This document shows, piece by piece, positions 2,656-16,428 of a stretch of 16,490 nucleotides of DNA. The notes beneath the pieces are model-generated. The model searched no databases, was not told the DNA's origin, and saw only the letters and a list, made by a program, of their open reading frames with translations. Within the stretch, counting starts at the first letter, position 1, and every line of letters starts with the position of its first letter. The translations under genes were made by a program, and so were the position numbers. The DNA is from Pseudomonadota bacterium (GTDB lineage Bacteria; Pseudomonadota; Alphaproteobacteria; Rhizobiales; Beijerinckiaceae), in contig JAGWRL010000236.1 of NCBI GenBank assembly GCA_028876585.1, positions 1-16,490 on the forward strand. The letters run 5' to 3'.

Positions 2656-2841
2656 GTGGCGAAGAAAAAAAGCCTGAGCGTTTGCGCCGCTCAGGCTTCG
2701 AAGGTGGAAAACAAAATCGACAGCGCCTCTCATAGCGCGGCCGCCTTGCAATCGCAAATCAAGTTTCTCGCCCGCCGCGGCATTTCCCCGGCGCGCGCCG
2801 CGATCGTCGCGCCTTTCGCATTCGGGGAGGCGCGCTCATGA
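2656..2841 (+). CDS. Small prophage protein, unknown
   Basis: This 61-residue ORF starts at a GTG that directly follows the TAA of the HTH gene and ends in an ATGA overlap with the RuvC-like gene, so it sits in a coupled operon. It begins MAKKKSLSVC and has a serine/alanine-rich middle. Its C-terminal segment (FLARRGISPARAAIVAPFAF) looks like the conserved core. I recognise no function. Overlap with both neighbours is the main reason to believe it is real. Confidence 0.6.
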   Translation: MAKKKSLSVCAAQASKVENKIDSASHSAAALQSQIKFLARRGISPARAAIVAPFAFGEARS

Positions 2842-3347
2842 GCGACCTTCTCAACTCCACCGCGCTCCGCATCGTTCTCGCGATCGATCCAGGCGCGCAC
2901 GGCGCCTTCGCCGTATTTGTCGACGGCAAGCTCGACGCCGTCTTCGACACGCCCGCGCTCGAAGAGAAGAGCGGCCGGCCGGCTGTTAACGCGCCGCTAC
3001 TCGCCTCTCTGATTGCGGAGACGCACGCGACGGCGGCATTTTGTGAGTTTGTTGGAGCCCGTCCAACCGATGCGAAGGCGTCAGCGTTTGCCTTCGGCCG
3101 AAGCCGGGGCGTTATCGAAGGCGTCTGCGGCTCACTCTCAATCCCCCTCGCATTCAGCGCCCCGCAAACGTGGAAACGCCTTGCCGGGATCGCGCCAGGA
3201 ACCGAAACCAAGGACACGGCGCGCGCCGTTGCGATCGCCAAGTGGCCGCACATGGCGGAGATGTTCGCGCGCAAGAAGGATATCGACCGGGCGGAAGCTT
3301 GTTTGATCGGCCGGGCGGCCTTGCAGCGGGAGGCGCGAAATGTCTGA
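2838..3347 (+). CDS. RuvC-like Holliday junction nuclease
   Basis: This 169-residue protein has the RNase H fold signature of RuvC-type crossover junction endonucleases: strand 1 with Asp17 in LAIDPGAHGAFAV, Glu70 in AAFCEFVGARP, and the C-terminal D150-x-x-E153 pair in KKDIDRAEACLIG. These match the four acidic metal-binding residues of the family, with Glu for the last Asp. Length is normal. Phage members resolve or debranch replication and recombination intermediates, often before packaging. It starts in an ATGA overlap with the gene before and overlaps the gene after by 8 bases, so it is part of the replication operon. The reading frame is intact. Confidence 0.8.
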   Translation: MSDLLNSTALRIVLAIDPGAHGAFAVFVDGKLDAVFDTPALEEKSGRPAVNAPLLASLIAETHATAAFCEFVGARPTDAKASAFAFGRSRGVIEGVCGSLSIPLAFSAPQTWKRLAGIAPGTETKDTARAVAIAKWPHMAEMFARKKDIDRAEACLIGRAALQREARNV

Positions 3348-3984
3348 TCGCGCCGACTTCGCGCAAACCGGCGCCGCCGTCGCGCCTGATGATCTCGACG
3401 ACGAGCGCCTTGTCGGTCTCAACCTGACGCCCGCCGAAGCCGCGCTCGCCGGTTCCATGCCGGCCGTCATGCACGCGCCGACCTATGTCGCGCTTCACGA
3501 TCACGGCATTTCCTGCGCAGCCATCACCGGCTACGACGCCTTCGACGCCTTGCACGTCGAGCCCGTTTGCTTCCTCCCCAGCGGCCGGTTCGAACTCGCG
3601 CGAGACATGCGCGACCAAACCGGTGCGCTTCTCGCCGTCATCGTCCCCTGTCGCAACGATCTCGGCTTCCTCGACGATCTTTGCGCTTGGGAAATTTCGA
3701 CCGACAAGCTGGCGTGGTGGCGTGGCGCGGCGGCTTTGATCGGCGAATCCTACTTCGCCGAGCCTTGGGTTGACGATGGCGTCCGCGTCTTCGCAACCGT
3801 GGCGGAATGGCTGCGGGCCGATCGGCGCGGCGTCGTCATCCTGCGGTCCTCGCTCGCGCGCTGGCGGTTGGCCGAACACCGGCTCATCGTCGATGACGCC
3901 CATTTCGGGCGCAAGCTCCGGGACGCGCTGTGGCTCCCCGAACCGTGCGGCTTCGTCGATACAGCGCGAAGGGCTGCGGCATGA
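3340..3984 (+). CDS. Unknown prophage protein next to RepA-like ATPase
   Basis: This 214-residue soluble protein is encoded between the RuvC-like gene (8-base overlap) and the RepA-like ATPase gene (ATGA overlap at 3981). An acidic N-terminus (DDLDDERLVGLNL) is followed by a mixed alpha/beta body with LLAVIVPCRNDLGFLDDLCA (~120-140), a WWRGAAALIG segment and a late RRGVVILRSSLARWRLAE, ending DALWLPEPCGF. I know of no named domain. The gene order suggests a primase- or helicase-accessory role in element replication; this is inference from position only. Intact frame and codon use like its neighbours. Confidence 0.7.
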   Translation: MSDRADFAQTGAAVAPDDLDDERLVGLNLTPAEAALAGSMPAVMHAPTYVALHDHGISCAAITGYDAFDALHVEPVCFLPSGRFELARDMRDQTGALLAVIVPCRNDLGFLDDLCAWEISTDKLAWWRGAAALIGESYFAEPWVDDGVRVFATVAEWLRADRRGVVILRSSLARWRLAEHRLIVDDAHFGRKLRDALWLPEPCGFVDTARRAAA

Positions 3985-5183
3985 ATCGCCTGGTTGCCCT
4001 CGACGACTACGCGCCGGCGGCTGACAATCCACGCGACGACGCAAAGTCGGCGCCGCTGAAGGCGACCCGCATTATCTGGCGCGACCCATCGACCATTCCG
4101 CCTCGCCGGTTCTTGTATGGCCGGCATTTCGCACGCGGTTTCGTGAGCGTCACGGCCGCGCCCGGCGGCGTCGGCAAATCCTCGTTGGAGATCGCCGAAG
4201 CCATCGCCATCGGAACCGGCCGCAAGTTGCTCGACGTCACGCCGTACGAGCTCGCGCCGGTTTGGTATATGGGGCTTGAAGACCCGCTCGACGAATACGA
4301 GCGCCGCGTCGCAGCCATCGTCTTGCACTACGGCATTCCCGGCGATGAGATCGAGGCTGCGCTGTTTCTCGATTCCGGCCGGGATCAAGATTTCATCATC
4401 GCGACCGAAGAGAGAAACGGGACAAAAATCGTCGAGCCCGTTTTCGCGGCCATCGTTGAGAACGTTCGGCGCCACGGTATCGGCCTCATCATCGTTGACC
4501 CGTTCGTCGCCTGTCGCGCCGTTACGGAAAACGACAACACCAAATTGGAAAAAGTGACGAAGGCATGGGCGCGCATCGCCGACGTGACGAATTGCGCGGT
4601 CGAGCTGGTGCACCACTTCCGCAAGAGCGGGAACGGCGGCGGCGAGCCGACTGCGGACGATGTTCGCGGCGCGTCCGCCATCGTCGGCGCCGTCCGTTCC
4701 GTGCGCATCCTCGCCGGCATGTCGCAGGACCAAGCCGACCAGGCGGGCGTGAAAGACCACTTCCGCTATTTCTCAGTCGGCTTCGGGAAGGCCAATCTAT
4801 TTCCGCGCTCCGACGCGGCAGACTGGTACCACATGGCGAGCGTCAGTCTCGGCAACGGCGGTAGTCGCCCACATGACGAAATCGGCGTCGTCACCGCCTG
4901 GAAATGGCCCAACGCTCTCGACGGGCTCCACGTCGCCGACCTGCGCAAAGTGCAAGACGTCGTCGCGGCTGGCGAATGGGCCGAGAGCGTTCAGAGTCGC
5001 GACTGGGTTGGACACGCCGTCGCTGACGCGCTGGGCCTCAACGCAGACGACAAGCGAGACAAGGCGCGCATCAAGTCGCTGTTGCGGACATGGACGGCCA
5101 GCGGCGCGCTAAAGCGAGATCGACAGTTCAACGCGAAGGAAGGCCGAGAGCGACCCGTCATAATTTGCGGAGCTAGAACGTAA
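3981..5183 (+). CDS. RepA-like AAA ATPase (AAA_25), putative replicative helicase
   Basis: This 400-residue RecA-fold ATPase resembles the RepA/RegA-type AAA_25 family of plasmid and phage replication helicases. Visible motifs: Walker A APGGVGKSS (60-68), an acidic WYMGLEDP segment (95-102), Walker B GLIIVDPF (168-175), the VHHFRKSG segment (from 210) and the RGASAIVGAVRSVRIL stretch (229-244). The C-terminal ~80 residues look like a winged-helix tail. I chose ATG 3981 because it overlaps the previous stop (ATGA); a GTG at 3930 would add 17 unconvincing residues inside the upstream gene. The gene is intact and ends immediately before the CCGCAC array, the arrangement expected for an initiator/helicase beside its origin. 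Helicase activity is inferred. Confidence 0.8.
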   Translation: MNRLVALDDYAPAADNPRDDAKSAPLKATRIIWRDPSTIPPRRFLYGRHFARGFVSVTAAPGGVGKSSLEIAEAIAIGTGRKLLDVTPYELAPVWYMGLEDPLDEYERRVAAIVLHYGIPGDEIEAALFLDSGRDQDFIIATEERNGTKIVEPVFAAIVENVRRHGIGLIIVDPFVACRAVTENDNTKLEKVTKAWARIADVTNCAVELVHHFRKSGNGGGEPTADDVRGASAIVGAVRSVRILAGMSQDQADQAGVKDHFRYFSVGFGKANLFPRSDAADWYHMASVSLGNGGSRPHDEIGVVTAWKWPNALDGLHVADLRKVQDVVAAGEWAESVQSRDWVGHAVADALGLNADDKRDKARIKSLLRTWTASGALKRDRQFNAKEGRERPVIICGART

Positions 5184-5185
5184 TT

Positions 5186-5307
5186 CCGCACTTCGCGGTT
5201 CCGCACTTGTTTCCGCACCGCGCCCCGCACCCCTTATGGAGGCGCGGTGCGGAGCGAAATTGCCGCACATGCCGCACCTCGCCGCACTTGAGGTGCGGAA
5301 TGTGCGG
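5186..5307. repeat. CCGCAC/GTGCGG array with two hairpins, possible origin
   Basis: Ten copies of CCGCAC fall in 122 bases. Direct copies begin at 5186, 5201, 5213, 5225, 5263, 5272 and 5282; inverted copies begin at 5247, 5293 and 5302. They build two perfect hairpins: CCGCACCGCGCC (5213-5224) with GGCGCGGTGCGG (5241-5252), and CCGCACCTC (5272-5280) with GAGGTGCGG (5290-5298). The array starts right after the RepA-like gene and has no good T tract, so an iteron-like origin or protein-binding array is more attractive than a terminator. Function is inferred. Confidence 0.6.
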
Positions 5308-5563
5308 AGGCATTCAGGCGTTAGACCCGGAAGTTGGTGAAAAGGCCGTTGCACACAAATCCATTCGCCCCGCCCGCATGAGTCTGGCGCTTTTGCTCAT
5401 TCAATGGGCAAATGCTCTATTGCCAGCATTGCGTCTCCGCAGGCGCCCATGTGAGGCGGTTCAAATTGTTGATGTCGCAGATCATCATGCGAGCCACGGG
5501 TCCGTTCAAGGGCCGTTCGCTTCGTTCGACCGGGGAACGGTGGGGCGTCAGCGCTGAGGCGAG
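5308..5563. other. No convincing gene between repeat array and serine recombinase region
   Basis: Several short frames are open here, but none has a clear ribosome site, recognisable motif or consistent codon use. One frame carries a YCQHC cysteine pair near 5420, too little to call a zinc finger. The stretch may hold the remains of an early gene or the flank of the repeat array. Confidence 0.4.
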
Positions 5564-5815
5564 ATGGCGAAGAAAGTTCAACATCGGGACGGCTCCAGTT
5601 TCGAACCGCCGAGATGGGGATGGATTGCCGAACGCAAGGTGGCGAAACTCACAGACGCGACGCTCCCCTCCTGCCCTCGCGCGAGACGGCGGCGCAAAGT
5701 GACCCATCTCTGCTTTTGGTTCGGCTCAAAAGGTGTCAGTTTCGCGCTTGGCGCACAAGATAGGCTTAACAGGCATATGAGCCGGAGTTGTGCGCTAGGA
5801 ACAAACGAGCCCTAA
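5564..5815 (+). CDS. Doubtful small ORF before the recombinase
   Basis: This ORF of 83 codons starts at ATG 5564 behind GAGGCGAG (short spacing) and stops 15 bases before the recombinase ATG. The first ~50 residues (MAKKVQHRDGSSFEPPRWGW...) read like a small basic protein; the rest is less natural, with a basic RARRRRK run. No domain recognised. It could be a real gene, a degraded one, or chance. Two other frames are also open over much of this stretch. Confidence 0.3.
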   Translation: MAKKVQHRDGSSFEPPRWGWIAERKVAKLTDATLPSCPRARRRRKVTHLCFWFGSKGVSFALGAQDRLNRHMSRSCALGTNEP

Positions 5816-5830
5816 CTTGTGAGCCACGCC

Positions 5831-6413
5831 ATGCGCATCGCCTATTTCCGCGTTTCGACCGGCGACCAATCCGTGAGCGCACAGCGCCACGCGCTCGGCG
5901 GAGCTTTCGACCGCGAGTTTGTCGACGAAGGCGTCAGCGGCGGCGTGCTGGCGGCCGACCGTCCCGGCTTCGCCAAGCTGATCGACACAGTCCGGGCGGG
6001 CGATACCGTTTGCGTCTACGCCGTGGATCGACTGGGACGCGACGCCATTGACGTACAGGCGACCGTCAAGCGCTTGATCGAACGCGGCGTCGTTCTCGAC
6101 ATTCACGGCATTGGCGTCTTGTCCGGCGACGTGGCGAAGCTCGCCCTCGCCATCTTCGCTCAGCTCGCTGAGATGGAGCGGACCAAGATCAAGGAGCGCA
6201 CGGCCGCCGGGCGTGAAGCCGCCCGCGCCTCTCTGGCGACGACTGGGAAGACCCAGCACGGCAAGTTGAGCCTCGGACGGCCAAGCGCACGACGGCGCCG
6301 AAGTCGCCGCCTGGCGCGCCGAGAACGCCGCCAGCATTGCCGCGACGGCCGATCACTTCGGCCTGTCGGCTGCGACGGTCAAGCGCTACTGCGCCCGCGC
6401 CACGGCCGTCTGA
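5831..6413 (+). pseudogene. Serine recombinase (resolvase/invertase), frameshifted before HTH
   Basis: This is a small serine recombinase. The catalytic Ser is Ser9 in AYFRVSTGDQS; the family motifs DRPGFAKLID, VYAVDRLGRDA and LAEMERTKIKERTAAGREAA follow. After KLSLGRP (near 6283) the frame changes: a C-terminal HTH, AAWRAENAASIAATADHFGL then SAATVKRYCARATAV, continues in another frame to the TGA at 6411-6413. Read without the shift, the original frame runs on as unrelated sequence to 6496. Joined length is about 193 residues, normal for the family. ATG 5831 gives the usual MRIAYFRVS start; a GTG at 5819 is possible. The catalytic domain is complete, but the sequence-recognition domain would be lost. 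Confidence 0.8.
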
Positions 6414-6442
6414 CGCCTCTCGCTCATATTCAATCTTATCGG

Positions 6443-6470
6443 GTTGCCCTCGCCGGGCGGCTTTTTGTTT
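6443..6470 (+). terminator. Intrinsic terminator after the serine recombinase
   Basis: GTTGCCC (6443-6449) pairs with GGGCGGC (6455-6461), using two G-T pairs, over a TCGCC loop, and is followed by TTTTTGTTT. It lies 30 bases after the recombinase stop and separates the early region from the packaging promoter. Confidence 0.75.
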
Positions 6471-6493
6471 GCGCCTCAATCCATCAACAGGAA

Positions 6494-6540
6494 TGATTGT
6501 CGCGCTCTGTCACTCATTGTCTCGCAATATCGATCATTGT
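6494..6540 (+). promoter_or_regulatory. Three TSATTGT repeats with exact 20-bp period
   Basis: TGATTGT at 6494-6500 and TCATTGT at 6514-6520 and 6534-6540 are spaced exactly 20 bp apart, with further agreement inside the units (pattern TnATTGTnnCnC). They lie directly upstream of an extended -10 promoter, the place for an activator or repressor binding on one face of the helix. Confidence 0.6.
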
Positions 6541-7011: not shown

Positions 7012-8052
7012 AGCCCCTCGTCACGATGCGCGCCGCGCTCGACGATCCCGACCTGTTCGGCCGGATGCTGGCGGGCGAGTCCTGGCGCCGTGGCGAGCGC
7101 TGCTGATCGCCGCCATGGGCGAGGAACTAACCGAAGGCGAGCGCGCGGTCTTCGAAGACCTCACGGGGCGCGAGCGCGAGCCACTGAGCCGGGTTGACGA
7201 ACTTTGGGCCATCATCGGTCGTCGAGGCGGCAAAACCCGCGCAGCGGCCGTCCTGGCGGCATATTTGGCGGCCTTGGTCGATCATTCCGACAAGCTCGCG
7301 CCCGGCGAGCGCGGCGTGTTGCCGATCATGTCCGCGTCGACTTGGCAGGCGCAAAGGGCGTTCGGATTTCTTTCGGGCATTTTCGCCGAAGTCCCGACGC
7401 TGGCGGCGCTGGTCGAGAACGAAACCGCCGACACACTTTCGCTGAGCAACGGCGTCGACGTCGAATGCCGACCGGCGAGCTTTCGCACGGTTCGCGGTTC
7501 GACCTTCATTGCAGCTATCGCGGATGAGGTCGCCTTCTGGCGATCGGATGAAACAAGCCGCAATCCTGATACTGCGATTCTGGCGGCGACACGGCCGGCG
7601 CCGGCGACAACCGGCGGCCCGTTGATCGTCATTTCCTCGCCTTATGCGCAATCCGGGGAGTTATGGTCGACGTTCAAGCGCGACTATGGCGCGTCGGGCG
7701 ACCCGCTGATCCTGGTTGCGCGCGCGCCGTCGCGGACGATGAATCCGACGTTGCCGCAAAGGTGGTTGATCGGGCGCGCGAACGCGATCCGGACTCGGCG
7801 CGGGCGGAATTCGACGCGGAATTTAGGAGTGACATTTCGACGTTTATCAGCCGCGAGACCGTCGACGCTGCGATTGAATTTGGCGTCACGGTCCGCGCGC
7901 CGGTAGATGGCGTCGCCTATGTCGGCTTTGTTGATCCGTCCGGCGGCTTGCCGAGCGCAAGGCGCTGTTGGCGCGCCGTCTCGACGCCGAGGCGGAACGG
8001 CAGGGCGCCGAGATTGCGGTCGCGGCCGTGGCGGGAAAGCGAACAAGCTTGA
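7008..8052 (+). pseudogene. Terminase large subunit, frameshifted and truncated in nuclease domain
   Basis: This is the ATPase motor that packages phage DNA. GTG 7008 overlaps the previous stop and gives MKPLVTMRAALDDPDLFGRM. A one-base loss near 7088 (in SWR-AWRALLIAAMG) shifts the frame. Walker A is GRRGGKT (near 7230), Walker B is IAAIADEVAFW, and a coupling motif ISSPYAQSG follows. A second one-base loss at the AGGTGG near 7761 shifts to the frame with VVDRARERDPDSARAEFDAE. It reaches VAYVGFVDPSGG, the first Asp of the C-terminal nuclease domain. There homology appears to stop near 7946 and unrelated sequence begins, so most of the nuclease domain is deleted. About 310 codons remain of a usual ~500. 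It should be non-functional. Confidence 0.8.
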
Positions 8053-13653: not shown

Positions 13654-13729
<76 letters not shown>

Positions 13730-13941: not shown

Positions 13942-14502
13942 TCATTTGACAGGGGCCGGGCCTAGCGCCGCCTCGATCCAGGCGCGGGTCTGCGCCAGCA
14001 CCTCGTCCGACAGGTCCGCATCGTCGATCGCGCGGGCGAGGATCACGGCGCCCACCATCGCCGCCCAGGTCCCGATCGCCGCGCGGCGTCGCTGCGCCGC
14101 GTCCAGATCGGGGAGCGCTTGGCTGATCCGCTCGATCTGCGATCGCAGCCCCTGCGTCATCGCCGCGCGCGCCGCCGGCGTCTGGTGGCGGATGTCGGCG
14201 GCGAGGCCCGCCGTGGGGCAGCCGCCGGCGGCGTCGTCCCGATGCCCCGGCGCGAGATAGGCGTCGAGATAGGCGCGCAGATCGCCGCCGCCTTCGCCGT
14301 CGGCGAGAACATGGCCGACCGTCTCGGCGACGAGATCGTCCTTCGAGCGGAAATGCCCGTAGAAACCGCCGTGCGTGAGGCCGGCGGCCTGCATCACTTC
14401 GGCGACGCTGACGGCGTCGAAGCCTTTGTCGCGGAACAGCCGGCTGGCGACGTCGAGGATTCGCCGCCGGTTCTGCGCCATCTGCTCTCGACTGACTTTC
14501 AT
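13942..14502 (-). CDS. TetR/AcrR-family transcriptional repressor
   Basis: This 186-residue protein has the family layout: an N-terminal HTH (ILDVASRLFRDKGFDAVSVA, then EVMQAAGLTHGGFYGHFRSK) at residues ~15-60, then a helical ligand-binding domain that includes AAGGCPTAGLAADIRHQTPA. It belongs to the chromosomal flank, not the element. It is divergent from the short-chain dehydrogenase gene with 100 bases between starts, carrying TCATGA palindromes and overlapping promoters, so it most likely represses both transcripts and releases on binding a small molecule. Ligand unknown. ATG 14502 is the natural start (MKVSREQMAQNRRRILDVAS). Intact, with typical length. Confidence 0.88.
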   Translation of the reverse strand: MKVSREQMAQNRRRILDVASRLFRDKGFDAVSVAEVMQAAGLTHGGFYGHFRSKDDLVAETVGHVLADGEGGGDLRAYLDAYLAPGHRDDAAGGCPTAGLAADIRHQTPAARAAMTQGLRSQIERISQALPDLDAAQRRRAAIGTWAAMVGAVILARAIDDADLSDEVLAQTRAWIEAALGPAPVK

Positions 14503-14517
14503 GGCTCACACTGGCCC

Positions 14518-14570
14518 TTGACATAATCATGACCATCATCATATTTAGTCAATCATGATAACCGTCATGA
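14518..14570. promoter_or_regulatory. Divergent promoter and TCATGA operators (TetR/SDR)
   Basis: Plus strand: TTGACA (14518-14523), 16 bp, CATATT (14540-14545). Minus strand: TTGACT (complement of 14547-14552) with a weak -10 on the tetR side. The palindrome TCATGA occurs at 14527-14532, 14553-14558 and 14565-14570; the last two form an 18-bp inverted repeat. All lie between the two starts, as expected for TetR operators. Confidence 0.6.
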
Positions 14571-14602
14571 ATATAGGGTTCCACGCAGCGGAGAGCAATC
14601 CC

Positions 14603-15391
14603 ATGGCCGCCATTCCCTCAGTTCTGATCACCGGCGCCTCCACCGGCATCGGCGCCGTCTATGCGGATCGCTTCGCGCATCGTGGCCATGACCTTGTGCT
14701 GGTCGCGCGCGACCGGGCGCGGATGGAGGCGCTGGCGGCGCGCTTGCGGCGGGAGGCCGGCGTGTCAATCGACATCGTCCAGGCCGATCTGACGCAGCCC
14801 GGCGAACTTGCGACGGTGGAGGCCCGTCTGCGCGACGACGCGCGCATCGGCGTTCTCGTCAATAATGCGGGAGCGGCCCTCGGCGGGTCGTTCATCCAGC
14901 AATCCACGGACGATGTCGCGCGCCTCGTCGCGCTCAACACCACGGCGCTGCTGCGGCTCGCCCACGCGGCGGCGGCGCGTTTTGCGCAGGCCGGCGCGGG
15001 GGCGATCATCAATATCAGCTCCGTGGTCGGCCTGGCGCCCGAATTCGGCATGACCGTCTATGGCGCGACCAAGGCGTTCGCGCTGTTCCTGTCGCAGGGC
15101 CTCGCCGTCGAACTCGGCCCCAAGGGCGTCTACGTTCAGGCCGTGCTGCCCGCCGCCACGCGCACCGAGATTTGGAAACACGCCGGCGCCGACGTCAACA
15201 CGATGGCGGGCGTGATGGAGGTCGACGAACTCGTCGATGCGGCGCTGCTCGGTTTCGACCGCCGCGAGCCGGTGACGATTCCCCCGCTGCCCGACGCGGG
15301 CCAATGGGACGCCTATCAGGCGGCGCGTCAGGCCATGTTGCCGAACACGCGGCAAAATCACGCCGCGCCGCGCTACCGGACCGGCGCTTAA
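14603..15391 (+). CDS. Short-chain dehydrogenase/reductase (SDR)
   Basis: This is a 262-residue classical SDR that should use NAD(P)(H) to reduce or oxidise a carbonyl or alcohol. The cofactor motif is TGASTGIG (10-17), the structural NNAG is at 87-90, and the N-S-Y-K set is visible: Asn112 (ALNTTAL), Ser139/140 (NISS), Tyr153 and Lys157 (YGATK). ATG 14603 has GGAGAG about 8 bases upstream; ATG 14555 would put 16 poor residues in front and lie in the operator. The downstream oxidoreductase gene starts 35 bases later, so both are probably one operon under the divergent TetR regulator. Substrate is not predictable. Confidence 0.88.
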   Translation: MAAIPSVLITGASTGIGAVYADRFAHRGHDLVLVARDRARMEALAARLRREAGVSIDIVQADLTQPGELATVEARLRDDARIGVLVNNAGAALGGSFIQQSTDDVARLVALNTTALLRLAHAAAARFAQAGAGAIINISSVVGLAPEFGMTVYGATKAFALFLSQGLAVELGPKGVYVQAVLPAATRTEIWKHAGADVNTMAGVMEVDELVDAALLGFDRREPVTIPPLPDAGQWDAYQAARQAMLPNTRQNHAAPRYRTGA

Positions 15392-15426
15392 ACCGCCGCG
15401 CCGCCAAAGGCAAAATGGGAGCCGAC

Positions 15427-16428
15427 ATGCAGGCCTTCATCCTCGATCACTACAAGAAAAAGAGCCTGCTGCGCCTCGGCGAGACGCCGGCGCCGACGCC
15501 GGGGCCAGACGATGTTCTGGTTGAAGTCCACGCGGCGGGGGTCAATCCGCTGGACGCGAAAATCCGCGACGGCGAATTCAAACCCATTCTGCCTTATCGC
15601 CCGCCGTTCATTCTCGGGCACGATGTGGCGGGGACCGTGGTTGCGATCGGCGCGAACGTTCGACGGTTCCAGCCGGGCGACGCGGTCTACGCCCGACCGC
15701 GCGACGGCCGGATCGGCGCGTTCGCGGAGTTCATCGCCATCAACGAAGCCGACGCGGCGCGCAAGCCGGCCAACCTCGACATGGCGCAGGCGGCCTCGAT
15801 CCCGCTGGTCGGCCTGACTGCGTGGCAGGCCCTGGTTGAGCGCGGCGGGTTGAAGACGGGGCAGAAAGTTCTGATCCACGCCGGCTCAGGCGGGGTCGGA
15901 ACATTCGCCATCCAACTCGCCAAACATCTCGGCGCGACGGTCGCGACCACGACCAGCGCGGCGAACGTGGAGCTGGTGCGAAGCCTGGGCGCCGATATCG
16001 TCATCGACTACAAAGCCCAAGATTTCGAGACGATCTTGTCCGGCTACGATCTGGCGCTGAACAGCCTCGACGGCGGGACCTTGCGCAAATCCCTCACCGT
16101 GCTCAAGCCGGGCGGCAAGCTGATCTCGATCTCCGGCCCGCCGGACGCGGATTTCGCCATCAAACAGGGCGTGAACTGGGGCCTGCGTCAGTTGTTCCGG
16201 GCACTCAGCTTCGGCGTTCGCCGGCGGGCCAAACGCCGTGGCGTCAGCTATGAGTTCCTGTTCATGCACGCCAGCGGCGGGCAGTTGAGCGAGATCACGC
16301 GGCTGATTGAAGCCGGCGCTATCCGCCCGGTCGTGGATCGCGTGTTCCCGTTCGAATCGACCAACGAAGCCTTGGCGCAGACTGAGACCGGGCGCTCAAA
16401 AGGCAAGATCGTCGTCAAACTGAAGTGA
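15427..16428 (+). CDS. NADP-dependent MDR oxidoreductase (quinone-reductase-like)
   Basis: This 333-residue medium-chain dehydrogenase/reductase is of the zinc-free quinone oxidoreductase type. The GroES-like N-terminal domain holds VEVHAAGVNPLDAKIRDGEF and FILGHDVAGTVVAIG (61-75). The Rossmann domain holds the nucleotide loop AGSGGVG (152-158) after QKVLIH. The usual structural-zinc cysteines are absent. The C-terminus SKGKIVVKLK is typical of the family (xGKivl). ATG 15427 follows GGGAG by 8 bases, 35 bases after the SDR stop. Members reduce quinones, enones or similar electrophiles with NADPH. With the SDR and TetR genes it suggests an inducible detoxification or redox unit; the substrate is unknown. 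Confidence 0.88.
   Translation: MQAFILDHYKKKSLLRLGETPAPTPGPDDVLVEVHAAGVNPLDAKIRDGEFKPILPYRPPFILGHDVAGTVVAIGANVRRFQPGDAVYARPRDGRIGAFAEFIAINEADAARKPANLDMAQAASIPLVGLTAWQALVERGGLKTGQKVLIHAGSGGVGTFAIQLAKHLGATVATTTSAANVELVRSLGADIVIDYKAQDFETILSGYDLALNSLDGGTLRKSLTVLKPGGKLISISGPPDADFAIKQGVNWGLRQLFRALSFGVRRRAKRRGVSYEFLFMHASGGQLSEITRLIEAGAIRPVVDRVFPFESTNEALAQTETGRSKGKIVVKLK

Follow-up and report, generated by a model that had tools for sequence, protein, structure and literature searches.

A hexamer array behind a RepA-like helicase gene as a probable target of the helicase's own winged helix and a candidate replication origin

According to the parts of the sources available for this work, the helicase of the staphylococcal pathogenicity islands (SaPIs) recognises, through its C-terminal domain, iterons located directly downstream of its own gene, and Cch2 of the staphylococcal cassette chromosome mec (SCCmec) binds repeats behind its own gene via its C-terminal domain (PMC7581432). 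The origin of the phage-inducible chromosomal islands (PICIs) lies immediately 3' of the initiator, an organisation that its authors consider unshared by other known bacterial replicons, and in the Escherichia coli PICI origins an AT-rich region lies between two sets of iterons (PMC6092414). In pRN1, a 100-bp stem-loop downstream of the winged-helix helicase gene is essential and has been proposed as the origin; it forms a poorly conserved island between conserved flanks (PMC4234260). In the PLE (PICI-like element) satellites of Vibrio cholerae, the DNA-binding domain of the initiator and the origin were found to be swapped as a module, as tested by replication (PMC8263062). Here, we describe a comparable arrangement in a stretch of 16,490 bases from a Beijerinckiaceae assembly (contig JAGWRL010000236.1, hereafter the window), in which a RepA-type helicase gene of 400 amino acids (P0001; 3981..5183, + strand) is followed by an array of ten CCGCAC hexamers (5186..5307). 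The explanation that we consider likely is that the preceding helicase binds the array, which would in all likelihood also serve as the replication origin of the element.

The ten copies occupy 122 bp, seven of them on the plus strand (copies 1 to 4 at 5186..5191, 5201..5206, 5213..5218 and 5225..5230, copies 6 to 8 at 5263..5268, 5272..5277 and 5282..5287) and three on the minus strand (copy 5 at 5247..5252, copies 9 and 10 at 5293..5298 and 5302..5307), exactly as the initial annotation had counted. Its placement of the array directly behind the helicase gene was also correct, the stop codon ending at 5183 and copy 1 starting at the third base beyond it. The two hairpins that it described, with perfect stems of 12 and 9 bp, are real and slightly larger than it stated: the inverted repeat at 5212..5253 has perfect 13-bp arms (5212-5224 and 5241-5253) around a 16-nt centre, and that at 5263..5307 has 18-bp arms with one mismatch (5263-5280 and 5290-5307) around a 9-nt centre. 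Folded as single-stranded DNA, positions 5180-5312 reached -48.1 kcal/mol (z -6.75), and none of 200 shuffles was equally stable.

Chance clustering of a GC-rich hexamer was considered and is refuted. It could appeal to the total of 17 CCGCAC in the window against 17.8 expected (seven lie outside 5186-5307), which is no excess overall, and therefore the clustering alone is special. Indeed, the densest 122-bp stretch in 300 dinucleotide shuffles of the window never held more than four copies, against the ten seen, and arrays occur at the same place in relatives. The two hairpins might also be read as a transcription terminator or an RNA element, since they are strong and stand right after a stop codon. 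This is highly improbable: the scan for intrinsic terminators (GC stem plus T run) gave no match at the array, in line with the initial annotation, which had set a terminator aside, and Rfam gave no match at E 0.1 within 4900-5900. Moreover, the repeated hexamers face both ways and some of them stand outside the stems, and their word tracks residues of the protein, as described below.

The region behind the helicase gene was surveyed in relatives at 165 fetched loci, not all independent of one another, which were found with an alignment from a protein search (single-protein scans with the window sequence found nothing). For the array test, the most frequent hexamer within 220 bp downstream of the stop was set against shuffles, p <= 0.01 being taken as significant; the test was applied to 157 of the 166 sequences, window included; the others had too little DNA after the gene (six) or no stop (three). 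Control stretches of equal length (n=727) were taken inside the gene and 600 and 1200 bp upstream and downstream. A significant array was present directly after the helicase stop in 98/157 sequences and in 11/727 control stretches, two of the 11 positive controls being displaced arrays (L162 and L164). The expectation that homologous RepA-like genes are followed by CCGCAC arrays is thus borne out for the place and not for the word: CCGCAC itself is not conserved, and other words are common. By locus, and including weak cases with fewer than four copies, we counted CTCCAC 23 times, CCCCAC 21, CCGCAC 15 (window included), CCACAC 13, CCTCAC seven, CGCCAC six, CTCCAG five and CATCAG four, plus others, for at least 15 words in total. 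The word is mostly C-NN-CA-C/G, and the frame TGC-NN-CAC-C fits many loci.

At least four clustered copies were found in 96 of 99 non-redundant loci; the arrays of these 96 contain both repeat orientations, with a median of six copies, the first 7 bp past the stop, and a span of 127 bp. A hairpin with a G+C stem and a loop of 4-7 nt made only of A/T (often CCCC-TTTA-GGGG) was present in 49 of the 99 non-redundant array regions, while 2.5 were expected from mononucleotide shuffles and the control stretches gave 2/92; C-rich examples lie at 2485-2504 in L118, 1420-1439 in L106 and 4258-4277 in L052. To the left of this hairpin 122/197 copies have one orientation, and to the right 92/112 have the opposite one. 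The A/T-loop hairpin possibly separates two groups of iterons and serves there for strand opening or priming. The first hairpin of the window array contains CCTTATGG, and its stem is too short for the A/T-loop hairpin test.

Some relatives depart from the common arrangement. In plasmid pR24_3 (L003, NZ_CP102848), CCTCAC, CCCCAC, CCGCAC and CCACAC units are mixed in one array at about 6.6-6.86 kb, as if position 3 were read loosely. In a Rhizobiaceae/Brucellaceae/Roseobacter-type group with an altered wing (DPVQRK..FVRA type), no significant array follows the gene (L025, L026, L029, L030, L034, L036, L037, L040, L042, L047-L049, L051, L053, L059, L061 and L063). In relatives on viral contigs the array stands about 0.47-1.5 kb downstream, with other DNA between it and the helicase (L157, L158, L162, L164, L197-L199, L208, L216, L217, L219, L225, L228, L232, L235, L237, L240, L242, L243, L245 and L251). 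The nearest relatives (P0002-P0017, with 64-83% identity for the ones that were aligned) are known as proteins alone; P0002 and P0004 have in common an EGR wing, and CCGCAC arrays are therefore predicted behind both genes. A DNA search of phage records gave no match.

Then, we compared the helicase domains and the surrounding DNA between pairs of relatives with ATPase domains at least 75% identical. When the two loci had the same word, the difference between N-domain and C-domain identity had a median of 0.03 (36 pairs, some identical); when the words differed, the median was 0.345 (44 pairs). More specifically, L148 (CTCCAC) and L145 (CCGCAC) are 97% identical in the ATPase domain and 31% in the C domain. 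In 60-column bins from the stop, their DNA is 75-100% identical upstream up to -350 and 67% at -290, falls to 30-53% between the -234 and +120 bins, then returns to 83-97% from +178. The same dip was found for L152/L116 (43-57% vs mostly 67-92% outside) and a shallower one for L120/L128 (57-73% vs 78-97% outside; CGCCAG, the word of the L128 group, had in part been set by hand), and none in the equal-word pairs L148/L151 and L120/L147. A systematic test kept 61 of the 174 pairs that had all three segments, namely those with an ATPase-domain identity of 80% or more and a DNA identity of 70% or more in each flank; the 113 pairs below the flank limit were set aside. A dip of at least 15 points between conserved flanks was present in 20/25 different-word pairs and in 0/36 same-word pairs; in two of the 20 the near-zero middle values are due to the alignment method, and L120/L128 falls narrowly below the cut-off (14 points). 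As judged from these alignments, the C-terminal domain and the array are exchanged together as one block while the flanks stay conserved.

Pfam assigned a single family, AAA_25 (PF13481), to the window helicase, which has the RecA-fold helicase core and is not a Rep helicase of the DUF927 or D5/Primase_C type. The best fold match of its model is RSF1010 RepA, and the two best RSF1010 RepA structure matches align to model residues 307-314. Beyond them, the C-terminal part of the model has helices at 318-330, 343-351 and 358-374 and strands at 377-384 and 389-396. Modelled alone, this domain reached a pLDDT (predicted local distance difference test) of 92.9, and the structure matches listed for it were mostly winged helices; P4 alpha and SaPI Rep domains were not among the best 50 matches listed, which excludes nothing. 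In the model, the protein thus resembles an RSF1010 RepA-like (RecA-fold, DnaB-like) motor with an extra C-terminal winged helix. This domain (residues 318-400; 4932..5180, +) is proposed to bind the array on account of its fold and of its joint exchange with the array in relatives.

Alignment columns of the helicase were compared with the positions of the word in 123 of 125 non-identical sequences with a word, eight words judged shifted or background being left out of the covariation set and nine out of the correlation between domain distance and word distance, for which a few words were likewise set by hand. The z values come from a simple permutation that ignores relatedness and are meaningful as a comparison between columns. 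Columns 389 (z 14.4) and 386 (11.1) ranked top for word position 2 (next 9.2), column 389 for position 3 (10.6, next 4.2) and column 338 for position 6 (18.3, next 9.1). Positions 4 and 5 are near-invariant (C in 119/123 and A in 118/123), and their best columns are other than 338, 386 and 389. Residue 386 lies within the wing loop between the two strands, and 389 immediately behind it. By this covariation, wing residues 385-389 of the window helicase (A K E G R; 5133..5147, +) are proposed to read the second and third bases of the repeat, and Q338 (4992..4994, +) the sixth.

After reduction of the 123 sequences to the 99 non-redundant loci, Q338 went with C at position 6 in 79/80 cases and R or K338 with G or T in 15/17. 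Among the 88 loci with a short wing, E389 accompanied G at position 3 in 6/7, R or K389 accompanied C in 33/37, N389 accompanied C or T in 13/13 and M389 accompanied A in 8/16; H389 went with G at position 2 in 6/7. In the 11 loci with a long wing, E387, which precedes GR, goes with CCGCAC in the window, L116 and L145, and the wing of the window therefore fits its own word; K387 goes with CCCCAC (L001, L086, L132 and L012) and A387 with CCACAC (L007), and the remaining long wings (L014, L099 and L265) are each different. In a leave-out prediction on 120 of the 125 sequences, from which C domains more than 70% identical were excluded, columns 386 and 389 gave both variable bases correctly in 55/120, against 18/120 for the majority guess and 41/120 for the best of 400 random column pairs. 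Position 2 was right in 81/120 (majority 65) and position 6 in 111/120 (majority 97). The comparisons support the view that residues 386 and 389 at the wing (or 387 where the wing is long), together with 338, carry much of the word specificity.

The written rules were applied to 69 further non-identical loci without a word of enough copies directly after the gene, and for 45 of these they named a word or a pair of words. When entire loci were scanned for 32 possible words (at least four copies per 250 bp), a predicted word formed the top cluster in 26/45; one of the 26 (L188) is inside the gene and does not count. With the scan restricted to DNA behind the gene, 27 of the 45 loci had five or more clustered copies of one of the 32 words, in arrays located about +260 to +1540 bp from the gene, and the commonest clustered word was a predicted one in 25 of these 27 arrays, two of which (L162 and L164) had already been seen in the control stretches of the survey. 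The other 18 had no such cluster in the DNA examined, in some cases since the contig ends soon. Among non-redundant C domains the rules were right for 11/13 and the word of the nearest derivation sequence for 4/13; permuted predictions reached at most 9/13, with a mean of 2.5 (5000 trials). This success outside the derivation set is the strongest evidence that the helicase's own domain would read the array.

A site for another protein (DnaA, integration host factor or a partition protein), linked to the helicase by position, would also bring about the joint exchange of neighbouring DNA. We consider this very unlikely: linkage does not predict the word from three winged-helix residues, even with the array about 0.3-1.5 kb off, nor does it predict conserved flanks on both sides while the C domain and the array change. 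Because of the block exchange, the residue covariation and the success of the rules outside the derivation set, it is very probable that the C-terminal winged helix of the helicase binds the array, a conclusion drawn from sequence comparison. The suggestion of the initial annotation that the array could be a target of the RepA-like ATPase is therefore strongly supported by the arrays of the relatives, by the co-exchange of tail and array, and by the residue rules that predict the word.

Several observations weigh against this reading, and others against that of the array as an origin. As for binding, a significant array directly after the gene is absent in 59/157 sequences, and the dip pairs trace to about three independent exchange events. 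In the leave-out prediction, position 3 was right in only 69/120 (majority 65, as for position 2), and column 340 alone (43) slightly beats 389 alone (40) for both bases. C-domain identity does not follow word distance (Spearman -0.04, partial 0.02), and N-domain identity does so slightly (-0.15). The mean z for position 2 is hardly higher in the C domain (0.94) than in the ATPase domain (0.87); the signal therefore sits in few residues. Some words were set by hand, namely CATCGG for L082, L125, L130 and L261, and CGCCAG for L123, L127-L129, L136, L187 and L189-L193, where present. Lastly, the rules missed the word in two test loci (L163 and L235).

As for the origin, in classical iteron-plasmid origins the iterons are accompanied by DnaA boxes and by an AT-rich element for unwinding. 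The window array is not of this kind. No AT-rich stretch lies in or beside it, GC being 0.53-0.70 across 5100-5950 with the lowest values (0.53-0.54) about 100-500 bp downstream, and no exact DnaA box (TTWTNCACA) is near it, only one-mismatch matches, the nearest at 5391. Cumulative GC-skew minima in four complete plasmids lie 7.5-13.4 kb from the array, and neither GC skew nor AT content supports the array as the origin. Furthermore, Mlot p3 (NZ_CP141051) also carries repB/repC.

In complete plasmids, the densest 250-bp cluster of the word stands behind the helicase in pVL1_6 (13/22 copies), in Mlot p3 (6/24) and in R. serenus p1 (8/68, 50 kb examined); in pR24_3, whose array is a mixture of words, the cluster is for that reason weak (3/21). 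Apart from the helicase, the gene lists of pVL1_6 and pR24_3 name no replication gene, although they are incomplete and contain many hypothetical genes. By analogy with the SaPI/PICI, SCCmec, pRN1 and PLE replicons, the array is likely to be the replication origin of the element.

The helicase could instead bind the array for control, as autoregulation, as incompatibility or copy control, or by blocking transcription or the replication fork past the gene. Iteron arrays elsewhere also serve copy control, and this precedent speaks for such a role, as do the position of the array in the intergenic space after the gene and a GC skew that does not mark it as an origin. The array is, however, 3' of the gene and away from its promoter, no sigma-70-like promoter was found within 5000-5900, and loading would be the simplest use of a helicase that its own DNA-binding domain directs to a site. 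In SaPIs, PICIs and pRN1, an arrangement of this kind works as an origin (PMC7581432, PMC6092414, PMC4234260). Overall, a purely controlling role is unlikely, and we prefer binding for replication. In this mechanism, the winged helices of several subunits would bind iterons lying in both orientations around the hairpins, and helicase rings would assemble on the array. The strands may open at the hairpins, where half of the relatives have the C-rich stem with an A/T-only loop, and helicase and primase (adjacent or fused in some relatives) would start replication after excision or induction. A swap of the tail-plus-array block would then alter origin specificity and leave the helicase motor unchanged.

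The broader reading, which we favour with some reserve, is that a ring helicase of the RecA fold (DnaB/RSF1010-RepA class) acts as its own origin-recognition protein. Its winged helix would read a hypervariable array, the 338/386/389 code would give the word, and tail and array would pass as interchangeable cassettes between viral contigs and the elements of alphaproteobacteria, with origin incompatibility, decoys or origin-targeting enemies as plausible drivers. Helicases that read repeats behind their own gene belong to the SF3 (superfamily 3) and MCM-like initiators, and RecA-fold replicative helicases are generally taken to depend on a loader or on an origin-binding protein of their own. 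If our reading is true, this design extends from SF3/MCM-like initiators to RecA-fold replicative helicases, and the origins of many prophage-like elements and plasmids could be found from the protein alone. It would also provide a natural, highly variable protein-DNA recognition system with known partners, comprising at least 15 words and three specificity-bearing residues. Cassette exchange would be a route for co-resident elements to escape replication incompatibility or origin-directed attack, as in the PLE satellites (PMC8263062). Lambda replication is described as being blocked by ectopic origin copies (PMC4488673), and a similar blocking could favour diverse origin words among co-resident elements.

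Upstream of the helicase, an open reading frame (ORF) assigned to the RuvC-like Holliday junction resolvase family (2838..3347, +; phrog_1770, E 1.2e-22) overlaps the next ORF (3340..3984, +), which in turn overlaps the helicase start. At E 0.01 the latter ORF was matched by none of Pfam, PHROG and NCBIfam, and it had no significant similarity to the toprim gene preceding the pVL1_6 helicase, and a toprim primase ahead of the window helicase was not found with these three databases or with the pVL1_6 comparison. At the left end of the window, a tyrosine integrase is split over two frames (289-1263 and 1062-1556, both +), one ORF matching Pfam Phage_integrase positions 27-100 and the second, narrowly short of the cut-off, positions 114-158; this may reflect a decaying element or a sequence indel. 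Downstream lie a serine recombinase of the resolvase/invertase type (5819-6496, +), with its likely C-terminal helix-turn-helix in another frame (6303-6401, +), and an ORF with weak similarity to a terminase large subunit (7115-7906, +; phrog_7579, E 1.3e-5), which may continue in another frame in ORF 7663-8052 (no Pfam match). A tRNA-Lys (ctt) gene (13654-13729, -) stands near chromosomal-type genes at 13942-16428 (TetR, short-chain dehydrogenase and zinc-type dehydrogenase).

Coming back to the described systems, the window shares with SaPI/PICI and SCCmec Cch2 the iterons directly 3' of a helicase gene, and the primase that is nearby or fused in SaPI/PICI is adjacent or fused in some relatives of the window helicase (PMC7581432, PMC6092414). 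The motors differ, the SaPI/PICI helicases being of the DUF927 or D5/Primase_C type (PMC7581432) and that of the window of the RSF1010 RepA type (RecA-fold, DnaB-like). The two-set layout of the E. coli PICIs around an AT-rich region is not found in the window, whereas the arrays of the relatives have the A/T-loop hairpin in 49/99. In the two best matches, the RSF1010 RepA chains (242-254 resolved residues, 279 in sequence) lack an equivalent of the complete winged helix. The iterons of the RSF1010 origin are read by a separate protein, RepC. Like the window, pRN1 ORF904 and its analogue in phage BIP-1 combine a winged-helix replication protein with a stem-loop downstream of the gene, but ORF904 is an SF3 helicase with a prim-pol, and no iteron code is described in the available part of that source (PMC4234260). 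In PLE, as in the relatives of the window, the DNA-binding domain and the origin are exchanged while the rest of the initiator is conserved (PMC8263062). PLE RepA is, however, a RepA_N initiator with an N-terminal DNA-binding domain and, in the part of the source available, no predicted helicase (PMC7145576). PLE iterons are about 30 bp long and the origin lies in a separate noncoding region, unlike the hexamers behind the gene in the window. P4 alpha (ori1/crr) and lambda O (ori) resemble the window in that each of these phage initiators has an iteron array of its own within its gene or close to it; they differ in that P4 alpha is a primase-SF3 helicase fusion and lambda O is not a helicase. 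We found no description of arrays behind AAA_25/RepA-type helicases in alphaproteobacterial elements, in a search that left most subscription journals uncovered and is thus weak evidence of novelty. The layout of a helicase gene with downstream iterons is already known; the new part looks to be the RSF1010-RepA-type motor, the many words and the short residue code.
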